This document shows positions 36,357-57,449 of a DNA stretch of 58,237 bases, one piece after another. Within the stretch, counting starts at the first letter, position 1. Every line of letters begins with the position of its first letter. This DNA is from Candidatus Accumulibacter aalborgensis (GTDB lineage: Bacteria; Pseudomonadota; Gammaproteobacteria; Burkholderiales; Rhodocyclaceae), in assembly GCF_900089955.1 (NCBI RefSeq), contig NZ_FLQX01000151.1, positions 1-58,237 of the forward strand. Direction: 5' to 3'. The position numbers and the translations under genes are program-made. The notes under the pieces were generated by a model that saw nothing but the letters and a program-made list of their open reading frames with translations, was not told the DNA's origin and did not search any database.

Positions 36357-36433
36357 GCGCCCGTAGCTCAGTTGGATAGAGTACTGCCCTCCGAAGGCAG
36401 GGGTCGGACGTTCGAATCGTCTCGGGCGTGCCA
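36357..36433 (+). tRNA. tRNA-Arg (anticodon CCG), island attachment site
   Basis: Acceptor stem GCGCCCG pairs with CGGGCGT (one G-U), followed by G and encoded CCA. D arm is TAGCTCAGTTGGATAGAGTA; anticodon arm CTGCC-CTCCGAA-GGCAG places CCG; T loop is TTCGAAT. The 3' half, from 36388 to 36433, is repeated exactly at 57388-57433, so the gene was used as an integration site and kept intact. Confidence 0.97.
36388..36433. repeat. Left attachment repeat (tRNA 3' half)
   Basis: A 46-bp direct repeat, identical to 57388-57433, covering the anticodon loop to the CCA end. It marks the left end of the genomic island. The flanking bases differ on both sides. Confidence 0.9.
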
Positions 36434-36615: not shown

Positions 36616-36822
36616 AGGCGTATCTGGGCCTGCATCGATGGTTTCAACCTCTACTACGGTATCCATGATTCCGGGTGCAAATGGCTGAAGGGGTGGATGT
36701 CAAGCAAACGGGACTCCCTCGCTTTGGCCAATATCAGGCCCTTGGCGTTGACTACTCGCCAAGTTCCTCCAGAGCCTTTGCTCGGGTTCAGGTGCCGTGT
36801 CATGCGGATGGCGCTACGCTAG
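36616..36822 (+). pseudogene. Decayed NYN-domain fragment
   Basis: An open frame without a start codon reads CIDGFNLYYGIHDSGCKWLK near 36631-36690, matching the N-terminal DGFNLYYG motif of NYN/PIN-like RNase proteins. After about 30 residues the similarity stops and the frame ends at 36822. NYN proteins are frequent cargo of defence islands. This is most likely a remnant. Confidence 0.4.
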
Positions 36823-37213
36823 GTCGTCTATCCGCAAGGTATGCGCGCCTCCAGGCATTGGCCCCGAGAAGCGAGGGACACTCATATTCCACAGTCCTGG
36901 CCATCATTGCTTTGGATTATGCCGGATGTTACGGTACGGATGTTACGGTACATTTGCGGAGCGTCGTGTTTGTGGCTCCTCCTCGCCAGAATGCTTGTCC
37001 CAACGAAGGCCTGTTCTCCTGATCGTGGTCAATTGCCGCCGACAGTGGTGTAGCCAACGGGCGCGGGGAACGATCATCGTCAGCTCTTGTGAGCGCGCGA
37101 TTCAACGGCAGGGAGGGCGGCGGCTATCAGTGCCCTCCGAACAGTGCCAACCCGCTATGATGCAGCAGAACAAGACCACCCTCCGGTGGCAAGAAAAACG
37201 ACTGAACTCGACC

Positions 37214-39838: not shown

Positions 39839-39937
39839 ATGGAGCATTTGCTGCGACATTTCAGGCGACACATTTTTTTGCGCAAAATCCTATATTGATG
39901 AAAAATAAACACAGTTTGCAATAAAGCGGCGGACATT

Positions 39938-41149: not shown

Positions 41150-41160
41150 TGCGACCAGCA

Positions 41161-41210
41161 AACGGTCATGACTCTGCAAGACACCCGCGATCATGGAAGT
41201 CATGACCGTT
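41161..41210. repeat. Inverted repeat after the Fic gene
   Basis: AACGGTCATGACT at 41161-41173 pairs with AGTCATGACCGTT at 41198-41210, a perfect 13-bp inverted repeat with a 24-base loop, 12 bases after the Fic stop. It may be a terminator-like or operator structure separating the Fic gene from the methyltransferase. There is no T tract. Confidence 0.5.
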
Positions 41211-41262
41211 TCCCTCACCCCCGACCCCTCTCCCGCCAGCGGGCGAGGGGCGATTCGCGAGT
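41211..41262. repeat. Dispersed CCCTCACCCC...GCGGGCGAGGGG intergenic repeat
   Basis: A hairpin of CCCCTCTCCCGC (41225-41236) and GCGGGCGAGGGG (41239-41250), preceded by CCCTCACCC, matches a dispersed intergenic repeat widespread in Proteobacteria (the usual CTCACCCC...TCTCCCGC...GCGGGAGAGGGG form). It sits directly upstream of the methyltransferase gene. Confidence 0.65.
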
Positions 41263-41288
41263 CGCTTGCGCGACTTCCACAGTAGGGC

Positions 41289-44114
41289 ATGACCATGGCC
41301 AGACCCAGCAACGCCAAGACCGTCGAATCACTGACCCATGACGAGGCTCGGCGCAAGAACATCCCGACCGCCGAATACCAGTCCGTGCTGCCGACCGAGC
41401 AGCAGCAGCCGAAGCAGATCGGCTACCCGCGCCCCGACGCCGACAAGCTGGGCAAGGAGAAGTCGGCCAGAAATCGCGACCTCGACCCGCAGCTCGTCTG
41501 GCGCGGCAAGGACGAGCAGGACTGGAGCGACCTCGTCGTCTCGGCGCCACCGCTCTACATCCAGGAGAAGGTGCACCCCAAGGTGCTGATCGACGATCTG
41601 CTGCGCAGCACGAAGGAGCGCAAGCACGAGGCCGGGCAGATCACTGCCGATCTCTTTGCCGACTTCAACGGCATTCCCAAGGGTGCCGACAAGACCGATT
41701 TCTACCAGCACGACCAGAACTGGACCAACCGCATGATCCTCGGCGATTCGCTGCAGGTCATGGCCAGCCTCGCCGAGCGCGAAGGCCTGCGCGGCAAGGT
41801 GCAGTGCATCTACCTCGATCCGCCCTATGGCATCAAGTTCAACAGCAACTTCCAGTGGTCCACCACCAGCCGCGACGTCAAGGATGGCAACGCCGGCCAC
41901 ATCACGCGCGAGCCGGAGCAGGTCAAAGCGTTTCGGGATACCTGGCGGGATGGGATTCACAGCTACCTGACCTACCTGCGGGATCGGCTGACCGTGGCGC
42001 GGGATTTGCTGACCGAGTCGGGGTCGATCTTTGTGCAGATTGGCGATGAGAACGTGCACCGGGTGCGGGCGGTGATGGATGAGGTGTTTGGGGAGCATAA
42101 CTTCATCAGCCAAATTACAGTCCGCAAAACGACCAGCGAAGGAAACACCTTGCTCGGTGCCACATGCGATTTCGTACTCTGGTTCGGAAAGCACAAGGAG
42201 GCGACAAGAGCGCGAACGCTCTACGCTAGCCGCAGCGAGGATTCGGAAGGGCGCTATACCTCAGAGTATTTCGACGGCTCATTTTACCGACTGGATAATG
42301 TCACCAGCTCACGTCCGGCCGGCGATGGCGACGTGACCAATTTTCAGTGGTTTGGCGAAGAGCACACGCCTGGCAAAGGCACGTTTAAGACCAAGGAATC
42401 GGGCCTCATTCGCTTGGGAAAAGCCGACCGTTTTGTCGTCACAAAGAACGGCAAACTCAACTATCGCAGGTCTCAAGCAGATTTTGGATACGGCGCGATG
42501 GGAAACCTTTGGGCAGACATTAGCGGTGCTGTACAAAGCAGGTCCGATCCCAAGATCTATGTCGTTCAAACCTCGACGAGCATCGTCGGGCGTTGCTTGC
42601 TACTGGCCACCGACCCCGGCGACCTAGTCCTCGACCCGACCTGCGGTTCCGGCACCACCGCCACCGTCGCTGAGCAATGGGGCCGCCGCTGGATCACGAT
42701 CGACACCTCGCGCGTTGCACTCGCGCTGGCCCGCGCCCGCATCATGGGCGCACGCTATCCGTTCTACCTGCTTGCCGACTCCCGCGAAGGCCAGCTCAAG
42801 GAAGCCGAAGTCACCCGCAGCGCGCCGAGCACGCAGCCGGTGCACGGCAACCTCCGCCACGGTTTCGTCTATGAGCGCGTGCCGCACATCACGCTCAAGT
42901 CGATCGCCAACAACGCCGAGATCGACGTCATCTGGGAGCAGTGGCAGGGGAAGCTCGAACCCTTGCGCGAAGCGTTGAACGCCGCGCTAGGGAAGACCTG
43001 GCAGGAGTGGGAGATTCCGCGCGAGCTTTCAAAATCCGTTCGCCCTGAGCTTGTCGAAGGGCGCGCTTCGACAGGCTCAGCACGAACGGCTGAGGAACTT
43101 CACCGTGACTGGTGGCAGGCGCGCATCGCGCGGCAGAAGGAAATCGACACCTCGATCGCTGCCAGGGCCGATTTCGAGACGCTCTACGACAAGCCCTACG
43201 AGAACAAAAAGTGCGTGCGCGTCGCCGGCCCCTTCACCGTCGAGAGCCTGTCGCCGCACCGCATGATCGGCGTCGACGAGGACGACGAACTGATCGACGG
43301 TTTCCAGGAAGACCGCGCCGAGTACAGCGCCCGGCAGTCCTTCCCGCAGTTGATTCTCGAAAACCTCAAGACCGCCGGCGTGCAGCAGGCGCATAGGGAG
43401 GACCGGATCAGCTTCACCGCGCTGACCCCGTGGCCGGGCGAAGGGGCGATCTGCGCCGAAGGGCGCTATCTCGAAGGCCAGGAAGGTGAAATGCGCGAGA
43501 AACGTGCCGGAATCTTCATCGGCCCCGAGTTTGGCACCGTGCAGCGCAGCGACCTGGTCGAAGCCGCCCGCGAGTGCGGCGAAGCCGGCTTCGACGCGCT
43601 GATCGCCTGCGCCTTCAACTACGAGGCGCACGCCACCGAGTTCAGCAAACTGGGGCGAATCCCGGTGCTCAAGGCGCGCATGAACGCCGACCTGCACATG
43701 GCCGCCGACCTCAAGACCACCGGCCAGGGCAATCTCTTCGTGATCTTCGGCGAGCCGGACATCAGCCTGCTACCGCAGGACGACGGCAAGCTGTGCATCA
43801 AGGTGAACGGCGTCGATGTCTTCAAACCGCAGACCGGCGAGGTGGTCAGCGACAGCACCGATGGCATCGCCTGCTGGTTCATCGACACCGACTACAATCA
43901 GGAAAGCTTCTTCGTCCGCTACGCCTACTTTCTCGGCGCCAACGACCCCTACAGCGCATTGAAAACCACGCTCAAGGCGGAAATCGACCCCGAAGCCTGG
44001 GCCAGCCTGAACAGCGACACCTCGCGTCCGTTCGAGAAGCCGAAATCAGGGCGGATCGCGGTGAAGGTGATCAATCATCTGGGCGATGAAGTCATGAAGG
44101 TGTTCAAGGTGTGA
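41289..44114 (+). CDS. Site-specific DNA adenine methyltransferase (type III Mod-like)
   Basis: A 941-residue methyltransferase of the beta class: catalytic motif IV DPPYG at about 177-181 precedes motif I LDPTCGSGTTA at about 447. RMILGDSLQVM and YLRDRLTVARDLLTESGSIF are neighbouring family motifs. The region between motifs (about 270-440) should hold the target recognition domain and has clearly lower G+C than the flanks. Near residues 583-600 the chain reads KSVRPELVEGRASTGSARTA, encoded by a palindromic repeat inserted in frame. AGGG at 41284-41287 fits better with a start at the second ATG (41295). It probably protects host DNA from the helicase-nuclease. Confidence 0.9.
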   Translation: MTMARPSNAKTVESLTHDEARRKNIPTAEYQSVLPTEQQQPKQIGYPRPDADKLGKEKSARNRDLDPQLVWRGKDEQDWSDLVVSAPPLYIQEKVHPKVLIDDLLRSTKERKHEAGQITADLFADFNGIPKGADKTDFYQHDQNWTNRMILGDSLQVMASLAEREGLRGKVQCIYLDPPYGIKFNSNFQWSTTSRDVKDGNAGHITREPEQVKAFRDTWRDGIHSYLTYLRDRLTVARDLLTESGSIFVQIGDENVHRVRAVMDEVFGEHNFISQITVRKTTSEGNTLLGATCDFVLWFGKHKEATRARTLYASRSEDSEGRYTSEYFDGSFYRLDNVTSSRPAGDGDVTNFQWFGEEHTPGKGTFKTKESGLIRLGKADRFVVTKNGKLNYRRSQADFGYGAMGNLWADISGAVQSRSDPKIYVVQTSTSIVGRCLLLATDPGDLVLDPTCGSGTTATVAEQWGRRWITIDTSRVALALARARIMGARYPFYLLADSREGQLKEAEVTRSAPSTQPVHGNLRHGFVYERVPHITLKSIANNAEIDVIWEQWQGKLEPLREALNAALGKTWQEWEIPRELSKSVRPELVEGRASTGSARTAEELHRDWWQARIARQKEIDTSIAARADFETLYDKPYENKKCVRVAGPFTVESLSPHRMIGVDEDDELIDGFQEDRAEYSARQSFPQLILENLKTAGVQQAHREDRISFTALTPWPGEGAICAEGRYLEGQEGEMREKRAGIFIGPEFGTVQRSDLVEAARECGEAGFDALIACAFNYEAHATEFSKLGRIPVLKARMNADLHMAADLKTTGQGNLFVIFGEPDISLLPQDDGKLCIKVNGVDVFKPQTGEVVSDSTDGIACWFIDTDYNQESFFVRYAYFLGANDPYSALKTTLKAEIDPEAWASLNSDTSRPFEKPKSGRIAVKVINHLGDEVMKVFKV
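43036..43089. repeat. Palindromic dispersed repeat inside the methyltransferase gene
   Basis: CCGTTCGCCCTGAGCTTGTC begins an imperfect palindrome that ends CAGCACGAACGG, with GAAGGGCGCGCTTC at the centre. This is a known dispersed repeat type of beta- and gammaproteobacteria whose translation as SVRPELVEGR...STGSAR is often seen. Here it lies within coding sequence and keeps the frame open. Confidence 0.85.
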
Positions 44115-44135
44115 GGCCGCAACTTATAGCGAGTT

Positions 44136-44161
44136 TATCTTGTTATACTTAAAATAAGATA
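44136..44161. promoter_or_regulatory. AT-rich inverted repeat before the AAA ATPase gene
   Basis: TATCTT (44136-44141) and AAGATA (44156-44161) flank an AT-rich spacer with TATACT inside, about 25 bases upstream of the ATPase start. It could be a promoter with an overlapping operator for the second half of the island. The gap is strikingly AT-rich for this genome. Confidence 0.35.
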
Positions 44162-44185
44162 TAACCACTAATAACTCTGTAGAAC

Positions 44186-45376
44186 ATGGACCCGATCACG
44201 AACCCATTTTCCCCTGGCGCCGGTTCGCCACCGCCCGAACTGGCCGGGCGCGGACCGATACTCGAGGAGGCCCGCATCCTGCTGGGCCGTATTCGATTAG
44301 GGCGGCCAGAAAAGAGTCTGTTGCTGACCGGCTTGCGCGGTGTCGGCAAGACGGTGCTACTCAATGAAATTCGCCACATGGCTCGGGAGACGGGCTATCG
44401 CACGGTGTTCATCGAGGCGCACGAGGACAAGCCGCTCGGTCCGCTGATTGCATCGCCGTTGAAGTCGGTGTTTTTCGAACTGGATCGAATGGCACAAACG
44501 GGAGATCGCGTGAAACGCGGCTTGCGGGTGCTGCGCAGCTTTCTCGGCGGCTTGAAAGTGAAGCTGGGCGAGATTGAAATCGGGCTGGACATCGAGCCTG
44601 AAACCGGCGCCGCCGACAGTGGCGACATTGAGATTGATCTGCCCAATCTTTTCGAGGCACTGGGCGATGCGGCCAAGGAAAAGAACAGTGCCGTTGCTGT
44701 CTTGATTGACGAAATCCAGTATCTCCAACCCAAGGAGTTGGGGGCTTTGATCATGGCCATGCACCGCATGCAGCAGCATCAACTGCCTGTGCTTCTACTT
44801 GGCGCGGGCCTGCCGGTGCTGCCCGGACTGGCCGGGGAGTCGAAGTCCTACGCGGAACGCCTGTTCGCGTTCCCTGATGTCGGGGCACTCTCCAAAGAGG
44901 ATTCGATCAGGGCAATCAGCGAACCTGCCCTAGCCGCCGGTGTGGAAATCAGTCAGGAGGCGCTTGAGGAAACCTGGCGCCTGACGAAGGGGTATCCGTA
45001 TTTCATTCAGGAATGGGGCTATCAGACCTGGAATCTGGCACAGAGCAGTCCGATAGCCAAATCTGTTGTCGAGTCGGCTGCGGCTACCGCGATACAGCGG
45101 CTGGACCAGAACTTTTTCCGCGTTCGCTTTGATCGGCTGACGCCCAGCGAGAAGAACTTCCTGCGTGCCATGGCGGAACTGGGGCCGGGGGCGAGCCGTA
45201 CCGGCGATATTGCCGCTTGTCTCGGGGTGAAAGTAACCAGTATCGGACCGGTCCGCTCCAAACTGATCAGGAAAGGCATGATCTACAGCCCGGCTTACGG
45301 CGACATGGCCTTCACCGTGCCATTGTTTGATGAGTTCATGAAACGAGCCATCCCGGACTTCCACCGCAAAGGCTGA
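44186..45376 (+). CDS. AAA+ ATPase with C-terminal winged helix
   Basis: A 396-residue ATPase. Walker A GLRGVGKTVLLN is at about 49-60, Walker B VAVLIDEIQYLQ near 171-180, and LLLGAGLPVLPGLAGESKSY acts as the sensor region. The C-terminal part (ASRTGDIAACLGVKVTSIGP, VRSKLIRKGMIYSP) looks like a DNA-binding winged helix, so the layout resembles Orc1/Cdc6-like or archaeal-type ATPases common in mobile islands. It is followed by the UvrD-like gene after only 6 bases, so both belong to one unit. Its exact defence role is unknown. Confidence 0.85.
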   Translation: MDPITNPFSPGAGSPPPELAGRGPILEEARILLGRIRLGRPEKSLLLTGLRGVGKTVLLNEIRHMARETGYRTVFIEAHEDKPLGPLIASPLKSVFFELDRMAQTGDRVKRGLRVLRSFLGGLKVKLGEIEIGLDIEPETGAADSGDIEIDLPNLFEALGDAAKEKNSAVAVLIDEIQYLQPKELGALIMAMHRMQQHQLPVLLLGAGLPVLPGLAGESKSYAERLFAFPDVGALSKEDSIRAISEPALAAGVEISQEALEETWRLTKGYPYFIQEWGYQTWNLAQSSPIAKSVVESAAATAIQRLDQNFFRVRFDRLTPSEKNFLRAMAELGPGASRTGDIAACLGVKVTSIGPVRSKLIRKGMIYSPAYGDMAFTVPLFDEFMKRAIPDFHRKG

Positions 45377-45382
45377 TGCGAC

Positions 45383-47518
45383 ATGGAATTCCGCATCGCC
45401 GACACCTTCACCGATAGCCTGGCGCGGCTGACCGGCGACGAGCAGCGAGCGGTCAAGACCACCGCCTTCGACCTGCAGCTCAACCCGGCCAACCCCGGCA
45501 TGAGCCTCCACAAGCTGGACAGGGCGAGGGACAGGAATTTCTGGTCGCTGCGGGTCAGCAGCGACATTCGCCTGATCGTGCACAAGAGCGATGCGAGCTT
45601 CCTGCTCTGCTACGTCGACCACCATGACCGGGCCTATGACTGGGCGGAACGGCGCAAGCTGGAGACGCACCCGAAGACCGGCGCCGCGCAATGGGTCGAA
45701 ATCCGCGAGACCGTGCAGCAGGTGTTCGTACCGGTGTATGTGCAGGCGGAACTGCCGCTCGCCCCGCCAGCCGCCCCGGTGCTGAAGCTGCTGTTCGCCG
45801 GCCGGAGTGACGACGAACTGCTGGCCTACGGCGTGCCCGCCGAGTGGCTGGACGACGTCAGGCAGGCAACGGAGGACACGCTGCTGGCCTTGTCCGACCA
45901 TCTGCCTGCCGAGGCGGCCGAGGCCCTGCTGGAACTGGCGACGGGCGGCAAACCGCGGGTGCCGACACTGCCGCCGGCAACCACCAACCCCTTCGACCAT
46001 CCGGACGCGCAACGCCGCTTCCGGATCATGACCAACGTCGAGGAACTGCAGCGCGCTCTCGATTACCCGTGGGAAAAGTGGACGGTCTTCCTGCACCCCG
46101 AACAACGGCAGTGGGTCGAGCGTGATTACGCCGGGCCGGCGCGGGTTTCCGGCTCGGCGGGCACGGGCAAGACCATCGTCGCCCTGCATCGGGCGGCATT
46201 TCTCGCGCGCACGCACGCCGATGCCCGTGTGCTGCTGACGACTTTCTCCGACGCGCTGGCCAGTGCCCTGCACACCAAGCTGCGGCGACTGCTCGATCAT
46301 GAGCCACGCCTTGCCGAACGCATCGACGTTCATTCGCTCAATACCATCGGTCTTCGTCTCTACAAGGCGCACATCGGGCCAGCGGCGATTGCCAGCCGCG
46401 AAATGGTCCGCGAAGTGCTGAATGAGGCGGCGCGTGCCGTAGCCAACCACAAGTTCGGCCAGCACTTCCTGCTGGCGGAATGGGAGCAGGTGGTCGATGC
46501 CTGGCAGTTGTCGACCTGGGAGGACTACCGCGATGTGGCCCGGCTGGGCAGGAAGACCCGGCTGCCGGAGGCGCAGCGCGCGCTGCTGTGGTCGATCTTC
46601 GAGCGCGTTCGTTCGGCCTTGCACGAACGCAAGCTGGTCACCCACGCCGAGCTGTTCACTGCGCTGGCCGCCGTGCTCTCGACGAGCACGCACCCAGCAT
46701 TCGACTTCGCAGTCATCGATGAGGCGCAAGACATCGGCGTCGCCCACCTGAGATTTCTGGCGGCACTCGGCGGTCACCGGGCCAACGCGCTGTTCTTCGC
46801 CGGCGACCTCGGGCAGCGCATCTTCCAGCAGCCCTTTTCCTGGAAGTCGCTGGGCGTGGACATCCGTGGTCGGTCGCGCACCCTGCGCGTCAATTACCGG
46901 ACTTCGCATCAGATTCGCACGCAGGCCGACCGCCTGCTGGCATCGACGGCCGCCGACTGCGATGGCAACAGCGAGGAGCGCAGCGATACGATTTCGGTAT
47001 TCAACGGACCGCCGCCAGCGATTCAGACTTTCCGGGATGAAGGCGAGGAAACACGCGCCGTCGGCGCCTGGATCGCCGAGCGTGCCTGGGCGGGCGTGCT
47101 GCCGCATGAGTTCGGCGTGTTCGTCCGCTCGGCGGCGCAGTTAGCACGTGCCGAAGAAGCGGTCCAGCGATCGGGACTCGCCTACAGGATTCTCGATGAA
47201 CACGTCGAAACGGTCAGCGGGCACGTGTCGATCAGCAGCATGCATCTCGCCAAGGGCCTGGAGTTCCGCGCCGTGGTGGTGATGGCCTGCGACGACGAGG
47301 TCATCCCGCTGCAGGAGCGCATCGAGACGGTCGGTGACGATGCCGACCTGCAGGAAGTCTACGACACCGAACGCCACCTGCTGTACGTTGCCTGCACCCG
47401 CGCGCGGGATCATCTGCTGGTGACGAGCGTGGCCCCTGGGTCGGAGTTTCTTGACGACATGCGGATGGATGGGGATTCGCGAGTCCGGAAGGTCGGGGGC
47501 TGGATTTCTGGCAAGTGA
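45383..47518 (+). CDS. UvrD-like superfamily I helicase with RelE-like N-terminal domain
   Basis: A 711-residue protein. Residues 1-90 (FTDSLARLTGDEQRAVKTTA, LHKLDRARDRNFWSLRVSSD, IRLIVHKSDASFLLCYVDHH) look like a RelE/YoeB-type toxin fold. The rest is a superfamily I helicase: Walker A SGSAGTGKT near 256-264, FAVIDEAQDIGVAHLRFLAA near 445, NYRTSHQIR, and SSMHLAKGLEFRAVVVMACD with LLYVACTRARDHLLV. It should be a DNA translocase whose toxin-like domain may bind or cut nucleic acid; toxicity is unproven. It is tightly linked to the AAA ATPase. Confidence 0.85.
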   Translation: MEFRIADTFTDSLARLTGDEQRAVKTTAFDLQLNPANPGMSLHKLDRARDRNFWSLRVSSDIRLIVHKSDASFLLCYVDHHDRAYDWAERRKLETHPKTGAAQWVEIRETVQQVFVPVYVQAELPLAPPAAPVLKLLFAGRSDDELLAYGVPAEWLDDVRQATEDTLLALSDHLPAEAAEALLELATGGKPRVPTLPPATTNPFDHPDAQRRFRIMTNVEELQRALDYPWEKWTVFLHPEQRQWVERDYAGPARVSGSAGTGKTIVALHRAAFLARTHADARVLLTTFSDALASALHTKLRRLLDHEPRLAERIDVHSLNTIGLRLYKAHIGPAAIASREMVREVLNEAARAVANHKFGQHFLLAEWEQVVDAWQLSTWEDYRDVARLGRKTRLPEAQRALLWSIFERVRSALHERKLVTHAELFTALAAVLSTSTHPAFDFAVIDEAQDIGVAHLRFLAALGGHRANALFFAGDLGQRIFQQPFSWKSLGVDIRGRSRTLRVNYRTSHQIRTQADRLLASTAADCDGNSEERSDTISVFNGPPPAIQTFRDEGEETRAVGAWIAERAWAGVLPHEFGVFVRSAAQLARAEEAVQRSGLAYRILDEHVETVSGHVSISSMHLAKGLEFRAVVVMACDDEVIPLQERIETVGDDADLQEVYDTERHLLYVACTRARDHLLVTSVAPGSEFLDDMRMDGDSRVRKVGGWISGK

Positions 47519-47560: not shown

Positions 47561-50500
47561 TTGACGAATGTCAGGTTAGGAGTGCGTGAAGTGCATCCAA
47601 TTCAGAAGTGGCAGGGCAGCTTCTTGAGACGGCGAGGGGCCGACTATCCGACCGGGCGTCCGCTGTACACCTATCGAGTTACTGACGAGGAGTTTTCGGA
47701 TCTCGAGACGATGATGCGGGACTGCCTTGGCACTTGGCTACGGACCGTTACGCTCGGAGACGTTGCCCGCAACGTCTCCGGCTTTCCACCCCTGTTCGTT
47801 CTCTATGCGGCGGAATGGTGGCGTCGCAGCTATGACGGAACAGGATTCGCGTGGGAACCGATTGTCAGTGCTATCGGCGCTTCCGGTGAAGAGTGGAGTC
47901 ACGCAGAGCGCAGTGAATGTGTCGAGAAGGGACTGCAAGGTTGGCGGCTGCGCTTGTCGAGCTTGCACGGACTACGGTACCTGGGAAGTATCGCCTTCCA
48001 GGGTGGCCTGCCGATGCGACTGCTGGCAGGCGCACAGGGCCCTATCGGCGGCATACTGAAGCGGGCGCTCAAGCTTGCGGGCGGTGGCGGAACGGACGCT
48101 GTGGAGATCCTTGAATGGATTAGGAGCCTTGCCAATTTCTTGCCGAATTCCTATCGGCAGAACGAAGTCTTCGTGCTGCTCACCGAGGTTGTCCTCACGA
48201 TTTTGCGTCTGAAGCAACAGGCCAATCTGACCATTGGCGCGGATGTGGTCGCCGAACTTGACCGGGCCGCCCAGGGATGGAGAGACGAGTTTCCGCTGCC
48301 GATCGATGACCATCAGGCGATCGAGCTGTTCAAGCTGGCTATCGGTGTCCCGCCAGGCGAGCAAGACCATCGCCACCAGGGAATCCTCGTCGAGCGATGG
48401 CTGGACACTTCGGATCAAGGCTGTTTTCAGCTCCGATCGGAAATCGTGCTGCCAGAGTTTCTGGACTCGGCACCACTGGGGCGGCTTCTTGGAATCCAGC
48501 CAGAGAATCTGGGCCGCACCCTGACCTTGCGGTTTCCGCGGGGCGAGCAAGCGGTGGATGTCTCCCTGCGCAGGCTGGCCGGCCAGGATCGCTACCGTGT
48601 CGAACGGCGCTCTCTGGACAGGCGCGGAGATCTCGCAACCGCCGAACATACGATGTTGCTCCTGATCGCAACCGGGGAGGAGCGCCACAAGGAAATTGCT
48701 CGCGGCGAAGCGCTCGATCCCGAGTTGCCCTGGATATTCGAGCAGGGCACTGATTCGGCGAACCCTTGTCGATTGATTCGCCAAGGTTCCGGGGCAATCG
48801 CCGGGTTTGAGGGAATCCTGTGCATTCCGCAGGACTGGAATTTGCGGCCCGACGATGGCGCATCCGTGGATTGCAAAGGCGAGCTATCGGGAGGCACTCG
48901 AAGGGTATGGACCATCCGCGGTGGCATTCGGATCGATGCTTGCGACGGACTGCACTACCGGGTGAGGTGCGGGCAGGCTGCGGCGACCGAGGATCGGTTT
49001 GAACTACGCGGGCAGCGGTACTGGGATCTGTTTGATCACCCCGCAGTTGCGTTTCGTGGCGTGCCAAACCTGTACCAGGTGTCCGAGAACGGTCTGGATG
49101 GAATGGCTCAAGGCACGCTCGCCTGGCGAGTGCCGGGGGGACGGTTTACGCAGCGCCCCGAGGAAATCTCCGGTCCGGTGAGCGCGATCTGGCCAGCGCA
49201 AGGGGAAACCAGATGGCGTACGCGCGTCGTCCTCCTGCCAGCGCAGGCGAGCATGGCGGTCGAGCCCGGTGCTGATCCGTCGAGCGGCGCACTGCGCTTC
49301 GCTAACTGGGATCTGTTGACGGTGGATTGCGACACGCTGGGAGTCTCGTCGCAGACGCGCATCAACGGCGCGAGCGTCGTGCTTGATCTGAGGTTACAGG
49401 GCGAAGGCCATCCACCCGAGTGGTGCTCGGTCAACGCGGTGTGGCGTGGCAACCCCAATGTCGTCCGACTGAGGGTGCCATTCCCGGCCAAGGGGGTGCG
49501 TACCATCGCCACCGATGGCAAGCAGCTCGAGGATGGCGCCCTGCTCGCCGTCGGCCGGGTATGCGGCACTCGTATGGTGGGTTTTCTCGGGCCTGGAGCC
49601 TACCAGGCGACGCTGAGGCTTGGGCTTCATCGCGGAAATCACGCTCATCCGGTCAGCAAAGTGGAGCACACGATCAAGGCCAATGTCGGAGGGAGTCGCG
49701 TCGAGATTCGCCTGGTCGACTATGTGAACGACATCCAGAGAATGCTCGCCGACGCAGACACCCTCGATGCCCATGTGAGTGTCAGATTGGGCTTGCCCGG
49801 TGGCGAATCGTCGACGCTGCGAGTGGCCCGTTACGAGTTCGAACTCGAACGACTGGCAATGATGTCGCAGCTTGGTTTGCCCCAGGAACAACTCCGTCGC
49901 TTCTCGGCGGAGGATATCGCCCGTTTTTCGGTAGTCGCACTTCGGATCGACGCCCCAGGAGATGAGCCTATTCGCTTGGCTCCTGTTCTTTCCGAGGGTG
50001 TGTCGACCGGAAACTGGATGTTCCCGTCTGCCGATCTTTCACCCGGAGCCTGGCTGATCCATCCGGGTGCCGGTTCCCAAGTGGCTTTCCGCCCGATGTT
50101 ATGGCCCGTTCTGGCGCCTAGTGAAGCCCTGCCAGAGATGCAAGACGCAGAGGAAGCCCCTGAGGTTGAAGTCACTCTGACTACAGCGCTTGGCATTCCG
50201 ACAGAACGACAGCGTCTGGATGCCCTTGATGCTGTGATTGCCGCGTTGGCGCAGGACTTCATCAGCGACGATTGGCGCCTGGTTGAGCAGCTTGCGGTGC
50301 AACTGGGCCACCTGCCCCTGTCGACTCTCGATCTGTGGCGTTGCTTCGCCCAGTCCATGACCGGCCTGGCTGCACTTGCGGTGCGCATGGCCGGCCTGCC
50401 CGCTGGATTTGCCGAGCGATTTCCCATCGAGCTGCCTACTGTTTGGGAAATGATTCCCTTGACCGCATGGGTTCAGGCAATGCGCGCAACCATGGCGCAG

Positions 50501-51124
50501 GGCACGTCCTGGTACGGACCTGAGGCTGGCACCCTCGTTGTTTCGGAATACCTTGATCGGCGAGTTCAGGCACTGGCATCCGCTTGCCCATCACTTCGAG
50601 TGTTGCTGGAAGCGGCGCGCGGGACAGCGACCGGGAAAATCAACCAGGACCTGAGGGCAGCCCAAAACCCAGGGATGGACCGCTTCTTTTCTGGGCAACT
50701 GTTCGATGGTGAAAACTCAAGGGTTCAGCACCTGCTGCGCAACAACGCCGACCGGAAGTGGCCCGGTGGATTCGCGGCGGAACTGACCGTCGCCGGGCAG
50801 CACGGAGCCAGGCCGTATTTCTGTCCGATGAACCACGGATTTCATGACCCGGTAATCAACCTGCCCATGCTGTTGGCACTCACACTCAATACGACGATGG
50901 ACCTGCACGTTGATTGGAGTCACCACCCAAACCTCATCAGGAAGGTACGAGAGGTTCAGTCATTCGACCCGGAATGGTTCGCCGAGGCTTTTGACTTGAC
51001 CGTAGCTCGCTGTCTCGCCACAGGACGAATTGACCTTCCTCCACCTGATGTTCCTCGATTGCCACGACGATTGGATGATGATGGAAGAAGAGTATTTCGG
51101 GTCCCTCCTCGCGGCCCTCGCTAG
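47561..51124 (+). CDS. druH: Druantia type III DruH-like protein
   Basis: A 1187-residue protein without a family motif I can name. It is mostly mixed alpha/beta with no Walker, nuclease or membrane signature; WWRRSYDGTGFAWEPI and YFCPMNHGFHDPVINLPML stand out. The symbol rests on position: in Druantia type III a large protein of unknown fold directly precedes the giant helicase DruE, and these two genes overlap here. The start is uncertain: TTG 47561 is the longest, but GTG 47591 with AGGAG eight bases upstream may be used. Confidence 0.75.
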   Translation: MTNVRLGVREVHPIQKWQGSFLRRRGADYPTGRPLYTYRVTDEEFSDLETMMRDCLGTWLRTVTLGDVARNVSGFPPLFVLYAAEWWRRSYDGTGFAWEPIVSAIGASGEEWSHAERSECVEKGLQGWRLRLSSLHGLRYLGSIAFQGGLPMRLLAGAQGPIGGILKRALKLAGGGGTDAVEILEWIRSLANFLPNSYRQNEVFVLLTEVVLTILRLKQQANLTIGADVVAELDRAAQGWRDEFPLPIDDHQAIELFKLAIGVPPGEQDHRHQGILVERWLDTSDQGCFQLRSEIVLPEFLDSAPLGRLLGIQPENLGRTLTLRFPRGEQAVDVSLRRLAGQDRYRVERRSLDRRGDLATAEHTMLLLIATGEERHKEIARGEALDPELPWIFEQGTDSANPCRLIRQGSGAIAGFEGILCIPQDWNLRPDDGASVDCKGELSGGTRRVWTIRGGIRIDACDGLHYRVRCGQAAATEDRFELRGQRYWDLFDHPAVAFRGVPNLYQVSENGLDGMAQGTLAWRVPGGRFTQRPEEISGPVSAIWPAQGETRWRTRVVLLPAQASMAVEPGADPSSGALRFANWDLLTVDCDTLGVSSQTRINGASVVLDLRLQGEGHPPEWCSVNAVWRGNPNVVRLRVPFPAKGVRTIATDGKQLEDGALLAVGRVCGTRMVGFLGPGAYQATLRLGLHRGNHAHPVSKVEHTIKANVGGSRVEIRLVDYVNDIQRMLADADTLDAHVSVRLGLPGGESSTLRVARYEFELERLAMMSQLGLPQEQLRRFSAEDIARFSVVALRIDAPGDEPIRLAPVLSEGVSTGNWMFPSADLSPGAWLIHPGAGSQVAFRPMLWPVLAPSEALPEMQDAEEAPEVEVTLTTALGIPTERQRLDALDAVIAALAQDFISDDWRLVEQLAVQLGHLPLSTLDLWRCFAQSMTGLAALAVRMAGLPAGFAERFPIELPTVWEMIPLTAWVQAMRATMAQGTSWYGPEAGTLVVSEYLDRRVQALASACPSLRVLLEAARGTATGKINQDLRAAQNPGMDRFFSGQLFDGENSRVQHLLRNNADRKWPGGFAAELTVAGQHGARPYFCPMNHGFHDPVINLPMLLALTLNTTMDLHVDWSHHPNLIRKVREVQSFDPEWFAEAFDLTVARCLATGRIDLPPPDVPRLPRRLDDDGRRVFRVPPRGPR

Positions 51125-54100
51125 TCGCGCCAGTCTAGGAACGGTTGGCTGGCTGGGATTCGCGAACGCGCCTTTGCGTCGGCACCTGATGGAGGTCTTT
51201 GCGCGTCCATTTGGCGATACCGGCAGTTTCCTCGCGGATCCCAGCTTCGAAGCGGTATTTGGCTGGGAGCCGAGCAGCAGTCGCATGAGCGATCTGGCGG
51301 GCAATCTACTCACGCCATCGCTGGTAAGCGCGATGGATTCGCCGCCACCCGAGTTGGCCGACGAATATCGCTTTGCCAAGGAGCGGGCACCCTACGCCCA
51401 CCAGTTGCAGGCGTGGCAGATTCTGGCGCAGCAACCCGCCAGGTCTCTGGTCGTGACCAGCGGCACCGGATCGGGAAAAACCGAGTGCTTCATGGTGCCG
51501 ATTCTGGATCGACTGGCGCGCGAGCAGTTGGCTTTGGGTGGCCAGCTTGTCGGGGTTCGCGCGCTGTTTCTCTATCCGCTGAATGCGCTGATCAACAGCC
51601 AGCGCGATCGTCTTCGCGCCTGGACGTACGGATTCGGCAACAAAATCCGCTTTTGCCTCTACAACGGGCTGACCCCGGAAACCGTGCCGGCGCACGCCCT
51701 TGCACCGGCCGACAGCGAGGTGAAGGACCGTCGGAGCTTGCGCGCAGCACCGCCGCCGATTCTGGTGACCAACGCGACGATGCTCGAGTACATGCTGGTC
51801 AGAGCCCAGGATGCCAGCATTCTTGAAAAGTCGAGCGGCAAGCTTGAGTGGATCGTCCTCGACGAAGCGCATACCTATGTGGGCTCGCAGGCCGCTGAAC
51901 TGGCACTGCTGATTCGACGCGTCGTTCACGCGTTTGCTGTCAAGCCGGAGAACCTTCGCTTCGTGGCAACGTCAGCAACGATGGGCGATCCGGACGGGCC
52001 CGCCGGAGAGCGCCTCAGGGAGTTTCTGGCGCAGGTCGCAGGTGTCGATGTTTCGCGCGTTCATCTGGTATCGGGGGCTCGGCAGATTCCCTTGCTACCT
52101 TCGGCAAGCGATTCCTGCCGTTTGTCCGTGGCCGAATTGCGCGCGATCGATTCGGGTAAGGATGAAACGCCGAATCGCTATCGCGCTCTGTCAGGGCACC
52201 CCATCGCGCGGAAGCTGCGCGAGCTTTTCGTCGACCGCAAGGCGGCACCGGTCGCGAAGATATCGGAAGCATGCTCAATGATCTTCGGCCCTGCGCCGGC
52301 CCATTCTCTTGCGCAGCAGCAGGAATCCTTGAGCTGGCTTGACCTGCTGACGAGTGCGGTGGATACCGGCGGTACACCTTTCCTGCCACTGCGGGCGCAC
52401 GTGTTTCACCAGACCTTGACCGGCCTGTGGTGCTGCGCCGACTCGCGATGCTCTGACAAGCGCGGATCACGACTCGACGACCCCGCCTGGACGTTCGGGA
52501 AGGTCTTCCTGGAACCTCGAAATCATTGTACCTGCGGCGCCCCCGCGTTCGAGTTCGCGTCCTGTGAGGAATGTGGAGCGGCCTACCTTCTGTCCGAAGA
52601 GAGGAAAGGGGCGGTGGTACAGGCGTCGAGTGAATCGGCAGTCGATGAATTCGAGCTGGAAACCGACGAGGACGACTCCGAAACGCTGGATGCCGACGAT
52701 GATCGGCCCGTCGAGAGTGGCCATGCGATCCTGATCACCAACCGCAAGCTGCCGCATGCGGGCGAAATGCACATCAACCGCCAGACCCAGCAGATTGTCG
52801 ACGCGAGCGATCCGGACGCGATTGCCCTGATTGTCTGCGAGGACGGCGGGGATGGTCTGGGCTGCCCGGCGTGCGGCGCGACACCTGCTCGCACTGGTCA
52901 CCTCTTCCGCAAGGCCCGAATCGGTGCGCCTTTCCTGCTGGGTGGCCTGCTGCCGACCTTACTGGAGTATGCGCCAGACGGTGCCAGGCCCGCCGACCAG
53001 CCCTATCGAGGGCGCCGTCTGCTGACGTTCAGCGACAGCCGCCAGGGCACGGCGAGGCTGGCCGCCAAGTTGCAGCAGGATGCGGAGCGAACAAAAGCGC
53101 GCGGGCTGATTTATCACCACGTGCTCAAGGCGATGACCGAGGCAGCCACGCCTGAGCTGGCAGGCATTGAGATTCGGATTCAGAGGTACGAAAAAATCCT
53201 TGCTACACCGAGAATGCTCGAGGAGGCGAAGGATCAGGTTACTGAGTTGTTGAACACGGACCGTATGCTGCTTGCTACTGCAGCAGTGCCGCCACCAATG
53301 CCTTTTCAGCAGCTACAGGCGGCAATCGCTCAGGAGGGGCAGGAGTTCCGGTGGATTCTTCAGACCTACCAGGGGTACTCCCGCGAGGTCTTTGGCGGCC
53401 ACGAGGGCGCGTCGAATCTCGCGGGGATGCTCTTGGTCCGGGAGCTGGGCCGACGACCAAAACGGCAGAATAACCTCGAAACGATGGGGATGATCGCTGT
53501 ACGCTATCCGCGCCTCGATCAGCTCAACACGGCCCCCGTCGATTGGACCAGCCGGGGTTTCACCTTGCCGGAGTGGAAGGATTTCCTGAAGGTGGCTGTC
53601 GACCATTTCGTTCGCGGTGGCGGCAGTCTCGATATCCCGGATCTTTGGCGAAACTGGATCGGCATACGTTTTCCGCGCAACTGGATTGTTCCTCCCAATC
53701 AGGATGAGGCTGCTCGTGGCCAGCGCCGATGGCCATCTGCCAGACGCTCAAGGGACCGGAGCGCACTGGTCCGCCTCCTGGCCCACCTGTTGAAGGTCGA
53801 CGTAGACACCGACCCGGGGCAGGATGCCGTCGACAGCCTGCTGATCGCCGCATGGGAACAGGTCAAGACGATGCTGTCCTTGACTGCCAGTGGATACATT
53901 CTGCGATTGCAGGACCTGGCATTCTCGCCAGTGGCCCACGCCTGGGTTTGCCCGGTGACGCGGCGATTTCTTGATACCACCGTACGCGGCGTCACGCCGT
54001 ACCTTCCGCGAATCATGCGTGAGGAGATCGCGGTCTGTGAGCGCAGGGAGATCCCGGTCTACGACCTACCCTTCGGTGGAGAAACCGATGGTGGGCTCCG

Positions 54101-57100
54101 CCTCCGGCGAGCGCGCGACTGGCTCGCACAGCAGGTGCTGCTCACCAGCCTCCGCGAAGACGGTCTTTGGGCAAACGTCAACGATCGAGTCATCGAATCT
54201 GCGCCCTATTTTGCAGCTGCCGAGCACTCCGCACAGCAGGCTTCTGAACTCCTGGACAAATACGAGAGACGCTTCAAGGAGGGATCGATCAATCTGCTCT
54301 CCTGTTCGACCACGATGGAAATGGGCATCGACATCGGTGGCGTCCAACTGGTGGCCATGAACAATGTGCCACCTCACCCGGCCAACTACCTGCAGCGTGC
54401 AGGCAGGGCGGGTCGGCGCCGGGAGACAAGATCCACGGCCGTTACCTTGTGCAAATCCAATCCGCATGATCAGAATGTGTTTTTGAACACACGCTGGGCG
54501 TTCGATGCCAAGCTGCCGCCGCCGGTGGTATCACTGAACAGTGCAGTGATCGTGCAGCGCCACGTCAATGCGATGATCCTCGCCCGTTTTCTGGCCGACC
54601 TGCTGCAAACCAATCCTCAGGACATGACACGTCTGAACTGCGGCTGGTTCTTCGATGATCGCGAAGATGCGCCATCGAAGCGATTCGTCCGTTGGTGTGA
54701 GGCCTACCTGCCGACGGCTCAGGAGCAAGTGGATGGCGGTTTGCGGCGACTGGTTCGTCACACGCTTTTCGAGGGTCAGGAGACTGAGCGGCTCGTTCGA
54801 CAGGCGGGTGTCGAAATGGAGGTGGCCTTCGACGAATGGCAGGCTGAGTGGCAGGCGCTCATCGAGCAGGAATCCGGCCTGGGACCAGGGGCCGCGATCG
54901 ATCCGGCTGCGAGGGCCATCGGTTTCCAGAAGAAGCGGTTGGCCGAGGAGTATCTGCTGCGCGAGCTGGCGACCCAGGGCTTTCTTCCAGGCTATGGATT
55001 CCCGACCTCCATTGCCAGCTTTGACAACACGACAGTCAGTGCTGCGAGGCGTTTACCACCTCCGGACGAGCCTGCCAAACGTGGTCGCGACGACAATCGT
55101 TTTCAGAAACGGGATCTCGCCAGCCGAGACCTGGTGACCGCTCTGCGCGAATACGCCCCCGGTGCCGAGCTGGTGATGGACGGACTGGTTTATCGTTCGG
55201 CGGGAATCACCCTGAACTGGCATATCCCGGCAGATCAGGAGGGCGCCAGGGAAACCCAGGCGATCAAGTTCGCGTGGCGGTGTCGAAGCTGTGGCGCGAG
55301 TGGCACGACGATGTCGCTGAAGCTTGCCTCGAACTGTGACGCTTGCGGTGCGAGGGTACATGCCAACGATATCCAGCAGTTTCTAGAACCAGCCGGGTTT
55401 TCGGTCGACTTCTATGAAGAGCCGCACAACGACGTGACGAGACAGCAGTTTGTCCCGGTCGAGCGCCCATGGATCAGCGCGAGAGGAGATTGGTCCCCCC
55501 TGCCGAATCCGGCCTTGGGGCGGTTTCGCGTGACCACCGACGGACGTGTGTATCACCATTCGGCCGGTCTTCATGGCCAAGGCTACGCTCTGTGTCTGAG
55601 TTGCGGGCGTGCCGAGCCGATGCTTGCGGACGGGAAGCCGCCAAAGCCTCTCGCACCAGGTTCAGAACACAAGAAGCTGCGCAGCCGCGCGGCTGACAGG
55701 GTGTGCAGCGGCAGCACCAATCGATACCAGATCAAGACTGGAATCGCGCTCGGACATCAGGTACGCACGGATGTTCTGGAGATTCAACTTCGCGATCTCA
55801 ACGGCCAGTGGATCACCCATCGCGGCATCGCACTGACCATTGCCGTCGCCTTACGTGACGCGCTTGCTGCATTGCTTGGCGTTCAGACGAGCGAGCTGGG
55901 ATGCGATGTTCAGGAAACCCTCGCCGCGGACAACCAGCGTTGCCAGTCCGTTTTCGTCTTCGACCGCTATGCTGCAGGCTATGCGTCGAGCGCCGAACGT
56001 CTGGTCAACGACATGTTCCGGGAAGCAGCCAAGCGTCTGGATTGCCCGAAGGCGTGCGACAGCAGTTGCCCACATTGCATCCTCGATTTCGATCAGCGAT
56101 TCGAGGCCGGGGTGCTCGACCGATTTGCAGCACTGGCTGTCATTTCGACCGACTGGCTGGACATGCTGAAGATTCCGGAATCGCTTCGCTACTTCGGAGG
56201 CAGCTCCAAGGTCGAGATCTCGGGAATGGTCGCGGCGCTGTTGCGGGAAAGCAGCCATCCGGATGCGCTGCAAACACGCCTGTTCGCGGGTGGCGCGTCG
56301 GACAGCATCGACCTTGCGGCTTCCTCGCTCAGGCTTGTCGCCTACCGTCTCGCGGCACTTGCACGTCCGATCGAAATCGTGATCGAGAAGTCCTTGTTTG
56401 ACAGGCTTTCCGAAGCGAACAGGTTTGCTTTGTCGAGTCTGTCCGACCACCCCGGAATCAGCGTTGGCCTGGCGACCGCCTTACCGCGCGCTGCGGGCGC
56501 CTGCATCCTTGCCGAGGTCAGTCACGGGGCGTCTGGCGTAGCGTGGGCCAGTACCGACGGCGAATCGATAATACCGAATGAGGGATGGGGAGCTTCCAGG
56601 TCGCCATTGGTCATTGGCACGCTCGCGGGAGGGACCGGCGCGGTGAGCACAAGACTTGAATCAGGCCAGATAAGGCCGCAGGTACTTGCTGCTGGCGACC
56701 GCGAGATCGTCCTGCATCATCAGGTGGATGGTCCGCTCCAGGGATTCGGAACGAGATTATGGCAGGTCATTGCCGACGAACACCATGGGACCTTGCAGCA
56801 AGTCCAGAACTCCAGCGCGGATGTGGTCGCGATAACGTACAGTGACCGCTATCTCTTTACCCCGCTGTCAGTTGCGCTACTGGTGGATCTCGTCAGCCGT
56901 CTCAAGGCGATCGTGGGACAGGCGCGCTGGGACGATCCGGATCTTACGATCACCACGACTGCAGTTCGCGGCAGCGGGGAGATCCGCGCGTTCAACCGCG
57001 TTTTCGCCGATTGGCCTGACCTGAGTGTCCGCAACGCTGTGGCAAGAGGGGCGTTCGAGTACCTGGGGATGCGCACGACAGTCCTGGCATCTGACAGATT

Positions 57101-57338
57101 CTCCGTGCAACATGGCCGCGTACTGGAAGTCAGGTTTTCTGATGGCAAGACGCTGACGGTGCGGCTGGACCAGGGAGTCAGCTACTGGCGTGTGCCCGCC
57201 TTTTCGGGTTCAAAGCAGTGCCCGGTGGCATTCGATTTCACCAGACCAGTAGACGATCAGATCAGAGATGTGGTGGAGATGCTCGTTCCTGTTGAAGGAA
57301 GTGCGTTACCTACCGAATTGTTTGTGAAGCTTCGGTAG
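51030..57338 (+). CDS. druE: Druantia DruE-like giant helicase with DUF1998 region
   Basis: A 2102-residue protein. Superfamily II helicase motifs: TSGTGSGKTECFMVPIL near 143-159, WIVLDEAHTYVGSQ near 273, SCSTTMEMGIDIGGVQLVAM and YLQRAGRAGRRRETR near 1115-1132. Cysteine clusters at CTCGAPAFEFASCEECGAAY, GLGCPACGATPA and CRSCGASG...CDACGAR suggest zinc ribbons. A DUF1998-like region follows (about 1600-1710), with SVFVFDRYAAGYASSAERLV and CPKACDSSCPHCILDFD. The combined size and order fit DruE, the hallmark Druantia gene, rather than the separate DrmA and DrmB of DISARM. The start is TTG 51030 or an ATG at 51048-51081; either way it overlaps druH. Confidence 0.85.
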   Translation: MTFLHLMFLDCHDDWMMMEEEYFGSLLAALASRASLGTVGWLGFANAPLRRHLMEVFARPFGDTGSFLADPSFEAVFGWEPSSSRMSDLAGNLLTPSLVSAMDSPPPELADEYRFAKERAPYAHQLQAWQILAQQPARSLVVTSGTGSGKTECFMVPILDRLAREQLALGGQLVGVRALFLYPLNALINSQRDRLRAWTYGFGNKIRFCLYNGLTPETVPAHALAPADSEVKDRRSLRAAPPPILVTNATMLEYMLVRAQDASILEKSSGKLEWIVLDEAHTYVGSQAAELALLIRRVVHAFAVKPENLRFVATSATMGDPDGPAGERLREFLAQVAGVDVSRVHLVSGARQIPLLPSASDSCRLSVAELRAIDSGKDETPNRYRALSGHPIARKLRELFVDRKAAPVAKISEACSMIFGPAPAHSLAQQQESLSWLDLLTSAVDTGGTPFLPLRAHVFHQTLTGLWCCADSRCSDKRGSRLDDPAWTFGKVFLEPRNHCTCGAPAFEFASCEECGAAYLLSEERKGAVVQASSESAVDEFELETDEDDSETLDADDDRPVESGHAILITNRKLPHAGEMHINRQTQQIVDASDPDAIALIVCEDGGDGLGCPACGATPARTGHLFRKARIGAPFLLGGLLPTLLEYAPDGARPADQPYRGRRLLTFSDSRQGTARLAAKLQQDAERTKARGLIYHHVLKAMTEAATPELAGIEIRIQRYEKILATPRMLEEAKDQVTELLNTDRMLLATAAVPPPMPFQQLQAAIAQEGQEFRWILQTYQGYSREVFGGHEGASNLAGMLLVRELGRRPKRQNNLETMGMIAVRYPRLDQLNTAPVDWTSRGFTLPEWKDFLKVAVDHFVRGGGSLDIPDLWRNWIGIRFPRNWIVPPNQDEAARGQRRWPSARRSRDRSALVRLLAHLLKVDVDTDPGQDAVDSLLIAAWEQVKTMLSLTASGYILRLQDLAFSPVAHAWVCPVTRRFLDTTVRGVTPYLPRIMREEIAVCERREIPVYDLPFGGETDGGLRLRRARDWLAQQVLLTSLREDGLWANVNDRVIESAPYFAAAEHSAQQASELLDKYERRFKEGSINLLSCSTTMEMGIDIGGVQLVAMNNVPPHPANYLQRAGRAGRRRETRSTAVTLCKSNPHDQNVFLNTRWAFDAKLPPPVVSLNSAVIVQRHVNAMILARFLADLLQTNPQDMTRLNCGWFFDDREDAPSKRFVRWCEAYLPTAQEQVDGGLRRLVRHTLFEGQETERLVRQAGVEMEVAFDEWQAEWQALIEQESGLGPGAAIDPAARAIGFQKKRLAEEYLLRELATQGFLPGYGFPTSIASFDNTTVSAARRLPPPDEPAKRGRDDNRFQKRDLASRDLVTALREYAPGAELVMDGLVYRSAGITLNWHIPADQEGARETQAIKFAWRCRSCGASGTTMSLKLASNCDACGARVHANDIQQFLEPAGFSVDFYEEPHNDVTRQQFVPVERPWISARGDWSPLPNPALGRFRVTTDGRVYHHSAGLHGQGYALCLSCGRAEPMLADGKPPKPLAPGSEHKKLRSRAADRVCSGSTNRYQIKTGIALGHQVRTDVLEIQLRDLNGQWITHRGIALTIAVALRDALAALLGVQTSELGCDVQETLAADNQRCQSVFVFDRYAAGYASSAERLVNDMFREAAKRLDCPKACDSSCPHCILDFDQRFEAGVLDRFAALAVISTDWLDMLKIPESLRYFGGSSKVEISGMVAALLRESSHPDALQTRLFAGGASDSIDLAASSLRLVAYRLAALARPIEIVIEKSLFDRLSEANRFALSSLSDHPGISVGLATALPRAAGACILAEVSHGASGVAWASTDGESIIPNEGWGASRSPLVIGTLAGGTGAVSTRLESGQIRPQVLAAGDREIVLHHQVDGPLQGFGTRLWQVIADEHHGTLQQVQNSSADVVAITYSDRYLFTPLSVALLVDLVSRLKAIVGQARWDDPDLTITTTAVRGSGEIRAFNRVFADWPDLSVRNAVARGAFEYLGMRTTVLASDRFSVQHGRVLEVRFSDGKTLTVRLDQGVSYWRVPAFSGSKQCPVAFDFTRPVDDQIRDVVEMLVPVEGSALPTELFVKLR

Positions 57339-57387
57339 CTTTGCCGTGAACTGAGATTCGAAGACTGCATTGGACCCTCGTTCCCGT

Positions 57388-57433
57388 CCTCCGAAGGCAG
57401 GGGTCGGACGTTCGAATCGTCTCGGGCGTGCCA
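57388..57433. repeat. Right attachment repeat (tRNA 3' half copy)
   Basis: A perfect 46-bp copy of the tRNA-Arg 3' half at 36388-36433, without the 5' half. It marks the right island boundary; 16 bases later the chromosomal aminotransferase gene ends. Confidence 0.92.
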
Positions 57434-57449
57434 AACTTCACGCCATCGC

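Follow-up and report, generated by a model that had tools for sequence, protein, structure and literature searches.

A divergent Druantia type III gene pair in a tRNA-Arg island of Candidatus Accumulibacter aalborgensis

The stretch of DNA analysed here (the window) comprises 58,237 nucleotides of Candidatus Accumulibacter aalborgensis (contig NZ_FLQX01000151.1) and carries two very large neighbouring genes, druH and druE. An earlier note, made from the sequence alone, had reported two overlapping giant genes and assigned them to the anti-phage system Druantia type III. Open reading frames (ORFs) of 1187 and 2102 residues were indeed found where it had placed them, and the pair very probably represents a complete Druantia type III system, which is likely to work in the way of its studied relatives. 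The features of the pair are listed below; the studied DruE is the solved E. coli protein (PDB entry 9tu7).

47561..51124, plus strand: druH (YjiT / STY4851-ECs_5259 family), 1187 aa, TTG start
51030..57338, plus strand: druE, YprA-family superfamily II (SF2) helicase with, by homology, a C-terminal PLD-type nuclease region, 2102 aa, TTG start
51468..51482, plus strand: DruE Walker A motif GSGKT, residues 147-151, from the alignment to 9tu7; K150 corresponds to K121 of the studied DruE
51861..51872, plus strand: DruE DEAH box D278-H281, corresponding to D251/E252 of the studied DruE; invariant in 10 sequences
56838..57188, plus strand: putative active PLD module at the DruE C-terminus; motifs invariant in 10 DruE proteins

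Both genes lie on the same strand with druH first. Their frames, which overlap, run uninterrupted for 1187 and 2102 codons, and the two are probably translated together. The overlap amounts to 95 nt in the ORF list. ATG codons are present at 51075, 51078 and 51081 inside the start region of the druE ORF, and the homology of DruE begins at residue 19 in the DruE3 profile of PADLOC and at residue 15 in the PDB alignment. This late onset of homology, together with the ATG codons, points to a real overlap smaller than the listed one, and a druE start at 51075-51081 with an overlap of about 44-50 nt appears more likely.

The identity of the pair as Druantia type III is close to certain. DruE matched the DruE3 model of PADLOC with 2312.6 bits over residues 19-2100, compared with 545 bits for DruE1, 381 for DruE2, 350 for DruE4, 92 for DpdJ and 46 for DrmA, while the NCBIfam model of DrmA yielded 11 bits at a cut-off of 999. 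Its best match in the PDB was 9tu7 (1201 bits). The profile search that had been suggested as a check thus places the helicase far closer to DruE3 than to DrmA of DISARM. The description of an SF2 helicase with a DUF1998-like region was likewise correct: the Pfam domains DEAD, Helicase_C and MZB exceeded their cut-offs, the last being the MrfA zinc-binding domain that equals the DUF1998 region (PF09369, residues 1605-1684, 35.1 bits at a cut-off of 24.2). The several zinc clusters noticed in the helicase are reflected by cysteines that are invariant in a 10-sequence DruE alignment.

The upstream protein proved to be related to DruH. It matched the NCBIfam family NF038336 (YjiT or STY4851/ECs_5259 family) with 648.6 bits at a curated cut-off of 150 and the PADLOC model DruH3 at E=3.2e-119, and a plain phmmer search of the PDB returned, at E<=1, a single distinct sequence, 9tud, which is named DruH (E=4.9e-24). 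A profile made from 10 DruH proteins, restricted to the C-terminal half of each, also retrieved 9tud (E=5.6e-21). These DruH matches in PADLOC, NCBIfam and the PDB, together with the DruE3 score, bear out the type III assignment. In Pfam, a search of DruH gave no family at E up to 0.1, which accounts for the earlier description of the protein as lacking recognisable motifs; this description is accurate for Pfam but fails for NF038336 and DruH3. The structure prediction proposed as a further check, a single-sequence AlphaFold2 run on all 1187 residues, reached a mean predicted local distance difference test (pLDDT) score of 33.7 with no residue at or above 70, and the model was used for no search.

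Functional details of this system type have been published recently. A preprint of May 2026 presents cryo-electron microscopy structures and mutants of Druantia III (PMC13192584). In this study DruE is a dimer and an SF2 helicase of the YprA family; it is reported to load on 3' single-stranded DNA (ssDNA), to form assemblies on long ssDNA and to cut. Of two C-terminal PLD domains the last is described as active, and DruH is regarded as the likely phage sensor, with a nuclease activity that depends on dimerisation. For Druantia III of M. smegmatis, a minor tail protein was reported to activate the system and phage DNA replication to be blocked (PMC13316683, June 2026). DruE was placed in the YprA family, and islands at tRNA genes were described, in a preprint of 2025 (PMC12458937). 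The statement in the earlier note that the mechanism of DruH is poorly understood has thus been overtaken by PMC13192584 and PMC13316683, both of 2026, in which it is described.

The published DruE residues were located in the window protein by means of the PDB alignments of 9tu7, at an offset of +4. Among 31 positions tried, K97, R649 and N1536 were set aside due to a mismatch of the PDB row at this offset, so that 28 positions were placed; N1987, Q1990, Y1995 and R2075 are not part of this count because the PDB rows end before the C-terminus. The E. coli protein of locus L152 was dropped as numbering reference, being another allele, and its alignments were kept for the analysis of invariant columns. 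Seventeen of the 28 placed residues are identical in the window copy. They include K121, D251, R165 and R1135 at or near the ATP site as well as E252 and R1139, the ssDNA contacts N156, R207, N221, Y227, R231, R647 and R652, and the context-dependent R1372. Mutation of K121, D251, R165 or R1135 abolished defence (PMC13192584). In the numbering of the window protein, the SF2 core residues K150, D278, E279, R1126 and R1130, i.e. the Walker A lysine, the DEAH box and the motif VI arginines, are identical to the studied DruE. The ATPase pocket of the helicase and most ssDNA-contact residues are therefore conserved. For DruH, 13 of 21 published residues are identical, among them nine of the 14 loss-of-function residues; the five that differ were mutated in the studied system only within multiple mutants. 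Across 10 aligned DruH proteins 46 columns are invariant, and seven loss-of-function positions (E85, R89, W98, W128, L141, G148 and G149) fall into them. The essential surface at the DruH N-terminus is conserved for the most part, and by analogy with the studied protein DruH is a probable phage sensor with nuclease activity.

The last 166 residues of the window DruE contain the motifs Y1937-x-D1939-R1940-Y1941, H2028-x-R2030, D2047-Q-G and Y2052-W2053, and the patterns Y-x-DRY, H-x-R and DQG-x-x-YW are kept in 10/10 aligned DruE proteins. We take these invariant motifs as those of a putative active PLD module. A model of the DruE C-terminus computed from a two-row alignment was of low confidence (pLDDT 50.9), and a Foldseek search with it gave weak matches, one of 734 at E<=0.001, with unrelated folds mixed in. 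Several of these weak matches have folds that we take to be PLD-like, namely polyphosphate kinase 2o8r, MITD1, PLD 7e0m, F13 and PLD4.

To place the pair among its relatives, a sample of 369 genomes of the class, including that of the window, and 14 control genomes were compared. DruH-family matches were present in 12 of the 369 genomes, ten of them above the curated cut-off, and in none of the 14 controls. The surroundings of druH were fetched for eight of the other nine genomes above the cut-off, the ninth (G314), with its match at a contig start, being left out, and in seven of these eight an open DruE frame directly adjoins DruH. The closest relatives found, G310 (L146) and G021 (L147), share 52% identity in DruE and 38% in DruH as well as the gene order, and their DruE proteins group with the window DruE (support 100/99) in a small tree of 10 sequences, which serves as context only beside the 15 Druantia III clades that have been published. 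The five genes upstream of the window pair had no match in the 19-20 kb covered at these two loci. The E. coli allele L152 is about 37% identical in DruE and 23% in DruH. Given that even the closest identities are 52% and 38%, the pair counts, judged by its sequence, as a new member of Druantia III, fairly divergent yet ordinary. A comparison of the DruH alignment with viral_contigs yielded 18 stretches that fit the pattern, none of which was confirmed. The DruE alignment found 17 viral matches, most of 23-44% identity, of which only L168 was used; some of the 17 are probably other YprA helicases.

Several observations weigh against a simple transfer of the published mechanism to this pair. 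The Pfam search of DruE gives no PLD domain, and at 11 of the 28 placed positions the window DruE has another residue or a gap. R1258 is replaced by Q1258 in the window protein, with R1257 adjacent, in a column that is variable in the family; in the studied DruE, defence was lost when this residue was mutated (PMC13192584). Five checked residues of the C-terminal domain (CTD) interface are changed as well (H1415Q, K1546A, H1572R, H1574Q and E1913Q). Two residues of the DruH ATP site, R1064 and K1067, lie beyond the alignment, which stops at residue 964 of the 9tud chain. In G247, the eighth of the fetched genomes, DruE is truncated and encoded on the strand opposite to DruH. Finally, binding between DruH and DruE is disputed: PMC13192584 reports no stable complex, whereas PMC13316683 describes the interaction as required. 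The CTD-interface residues and R1258 are features of one studied protein and lie outside the definition of the family.

Following the studied relatives, DruH would sense the infection, probably via a late phage structural protein of the tail or baseplate, and would nick DNA as a dimer. DruE would load where replication intermediates of the phage expose 3' single strands, its SF2 core would open the DNA, and DruE would assemble along the strand and cut it with the C-terminal PLD module, halting phage replication. From this analogy we infer the expression of the pair, its role in defence and its triggering phages, and DruE would oligomerise as described despite the changed interface residues. 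That the pair works like the studied relatives is likely, at a confidence clearly below that of its identity.

The pair is located in an island at a tRNA gene, as had been stated before, and a perfect copy of the final 46 nt of tRNA-Arg is present at 57388-57433:

36357..36433, plus strand: tRNA-Arg(ccg), left attachment site, with the repeat at 36388-36433 (ARAGORN; repeat)
57388..57433, plus strand: right attachment repeat, 46/46 identical to the tRNA 3' end, 49 nt past the druE stop

These perfect direct repeats of 46 bp are exactly 21,000 bp apart, with zero expected in shuffles, and enclose seven genes on one strand. No integrase was found in the seven island proteins scanned with PADLOC, Pfam and NCBIfam or in the small end ORFs 36675-37022 and 57257-57613. 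In the congener G387 this tRNA-Arg harbours another, defence-like island, whose repeats are 23.8 kb apart and whose right repeat is separated by about 125 bp from the gene of a phage-type integrase. Its right arm is 91% identical to window positions 57363-57433 over 71 bp, and this likeness suggests that the window island may have used a related integrase, the gene being lost or borrowed. The G+C content of the island equals that of the left flank (0.614 each), and thus the composition shows no sign of recent transfer. The G387 island itself (G387:C2:545-24462; L134, L135) encodes a RepB-type primase, DUF499 and DUF1156 proteins, a PLD-SNF2 helicase, an nSTAND NTPase and the integrase.

Upstream of druH, the island contains a module that is separate from Druantia, as delimited by PADLOC, Pfam, NCBIfam and comparative neighbourhoods:

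36797..47518, plus strand: upstream module
36797-39838, plus strand: BPTD_3080-family restriction endonuclease (REase; SF2), NCBIfam 1178 bits at a cut-off of 800
39938-41149, plus strand: Fic
41289-44114, plus strand: DNA methyltransferase of about 940 aa, type III according to PADLOC
44186-45376, plus strand: AAA_16 ATPase
45383-47518, plus strand: RelE-UvrD/GajB-like fusion; the RelE part has a HigB-like Pfam match of 16.3 bits, below the cut-off of 27

The assignment of the RelE-like part is also based on its likeness to a published fusion. The RelE-UvrD gene ends 42 nt before druH. A search of genome_contigs for relatives of RelE-UvrD gave 519 stretches, of which the best 80 were kept (68-83% identity, several phyla by title). 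Upstream sequence of 7 kb or more was present in 37 loci, and 34 of these also matched the REase and the methyltransferase, the exceptions being L079, L080 and L083. Between the matched ends of REase and methyltransferase, the 37 loci in which all three genes could be ordered have a gap of 24-58 bp in 19 cases and of 358-1831 bp in 18; between methyltransferase and RelE-UvrD the gap is 6-75 bp in 13 and 0.8-3.7 kb in 23, one being uninterpretable due to a stray match. The filled gaps contain 67 ORFs of at least 90 aa, taken on both strands and some of them possibly spurious, which form 14 groups of 2-6 members and 32 singletons. When 19 of them were compared with Pfam, 15 matched, some below the curated cut-off, and four remained without match; the matches comprise Fic (2), DUF4062 (2), a YhcG-type PD-(D/E)xK nuclease, Bro-N, SIR2, HerA, DndB, GmrSD, HNH, AAA_16 and three others. 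In the window, the two slots hold Fic and the AAA_16 ATPase. The core of REase, methyltransferase and RelE-UvrD is roughly 60-90% identical across phyla in the best segments. A conserved core with two slots that are either closed or filled with varied effector-like genes looks like a modular restriction-type defence system, and a limited literature search found no description of this three-gene core with slots as a whole. The core is the less described part of the island and may matter more than the Druantia copy.

Neither DruH nor DruE adjoins the RelE-UvrD core in any of the best 80 loci, 53 of which have at least 3 kb and 44 at least 8 kb downstream, and a crude first-ORF comparison of the 53 revealed nothing conserved downstream of RelE-UvrD. 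The adjacency to Druantia therefore belongs to this island and not to the core system. RelE-UvrD was detected in 8 of the 369 class genomes at E 1e-100, and besides the window genome only G247 has both modules: at L150 (G247:C2:2811000-2830999), methyltransferase pieces lie upstream of DruH, with RelE-UvrD about 21 kb off.

In comparison with known systems, the pair resembles the E. coli Druantia III (DruH 9tud, DruE 9tu7-9tuc; PMC13192584) in the druH-druE order, DruE homology over nearly the full length, the helicase motifs, the ssDNA path, the MZB/DUF1998 region, the putative C-terminal nuclease region and the essential N-terminal surface of DruH. It differs in R1258 and the five checked CTD-interface residues, and also in that no Zorya gene is present among the seven scanned proteins of the window. 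The M. smegmatis system is alike, by its description in PMC13316683, in the two-component type. With ARMADA II and DISARM (PMC12458937), the window shares the YprA-family helicase, and the island also carries a RelE-UvrD fusion and a DNA methyltransferase. ARMADA II consists, in this order, of the BrxHII-like helicase ArmA, the PglX-like methyltransferase ArmB, the YprA helicase ArmC and the RelE-GajB protein ArmD. In the window, by contrast, the YprA helicase is a DruE accompanied by DruH and lies downstream of RelE-UvrD and the methyltransferase, and the upstream SF2 protein belongs to the BPTD_3080 family, with no BrxH match in PADLOC. Unlike DISARM, in which DrmA is accompanied by separate DrmB and DrmC, the window has no PADLOC match to DrmA above the 46 bits of DruE, and MZB is fused within one protein.

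With an ArmD-like RelE-UvrD fusion, a methyltransferase and an SF2 helicase just upstream, the island resembles an ARMADA-Druantia island (PMC12458937), which might suggest that the helicase belongs to another YprA-family system, such as DISARM, Dpd, ARMADA or another Druantia type, with a neighbour unrelated to DruH. We consider this hardly credible, given that the helicase matches DruE3 over nearly its full length with 2312.6 bits while DruE1 reaches 545 and DrmA 46, that the score of the upstream protein is more than four times the DruH/YjiT cut-off, and that no second YprA homologue was seen among the seven scanned proteins. ARMADA is ruled out by the DruH partner and the PDB match and not by a profile of its own, as no ARMADA model is among the PADLOC matches. 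A different question is whether the pair still works. The lack of a detected integrase and the right flank, rearranged relative to the congeners examined, indicate that the element itself may be degenerate, and the relative G247 has a truncated DruE. Both frames of the window pair are open (1187 and 2102 codons), however, and the catalytic and family-invariant residues are kept, so that a decaying, inactive copy is improbable. A complete and functional Druantia III remains the reading we prefer.

Somewhat less improbable, but still unlikely, is that the restriction-like core, Fic, the AAA ATPase, RelE-UvrD and DruHE, seven genes in all, act together in defence as a single unit, in which Druantia would be cargo transcribed along with the rest. 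The seven same-strand genes between the attachment repeats, the 42 nt separating the RelE-UvrD stop from druH and the occurrence of both modules in one region of G247 would fit such a unit. So would a reported synergy between Druantia III and ARMADA II, in which the RelE-UvrD fusion is ArmD (PMC12458937). Against it stand the 0/80 RelE-UvrD loci with an adjoining DruH or DruE and the lack of conservation downstream in the 53 loci of the first-ORF comparison; without the window genome, joint presence in 1 of 368 genomes beside single presences in 11 and 7 is no more than weak. We regard it as equally doubtful that the 21-kb unit is a layered cassette consisting of a widespread restriction-like core, exchangeable effector cargo in its two slots and Druantia III docked immediately behind. 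If this were true, the core would mark or expose foreign DNA and DruE would finish it, as reported for the joint action of ARMADA II and Druantia III. For the preferred reading, in which Druantia III stands on its own, the earlier claim that a divergent copy is informative holds only modestly, because many DruH copies exist (12 of 369 class genomes) and the mechanism has been published. The window copy is useful as an outgroup with which it can be tested which parts of the 2026 Druantia model are general, since it retains the helicase pocket, the path of the ssDNA and the greater part of the DruH surface, while R1258 and the checked CTD-interface residues are changed.

The flanks of the island show further peculiarities. 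The aminotransferase gene that starts at 57450 is present in 27/27 other genomes of the genus, and in the four congeners examined a distance of 4-5 kb separates it from a different tRNA-Arg-like sequence (81% identity over 63 nt to the window tRNA). The remainder of the aminotransferase locus is found on contig C1 of the window's genome, starting beside the expected place of the gene. The right repeat with its flank (57434-58237) is most simply read as the site of a rearrangement, or else of a join made by the assembly. The final 64 bp of the window (58174-58237) have seven further copies in the genome, each with a one-sided flank and thus at a contig end; the aminotransferase gene is probably interrupted here by an insertion sequence, of which these 64 bp would be the end. 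On the other side of the island, about 2 kb left of the tRNA, a caspase (Peptidase_C14) protein with MORN repeats is encoded at 32863-34422.

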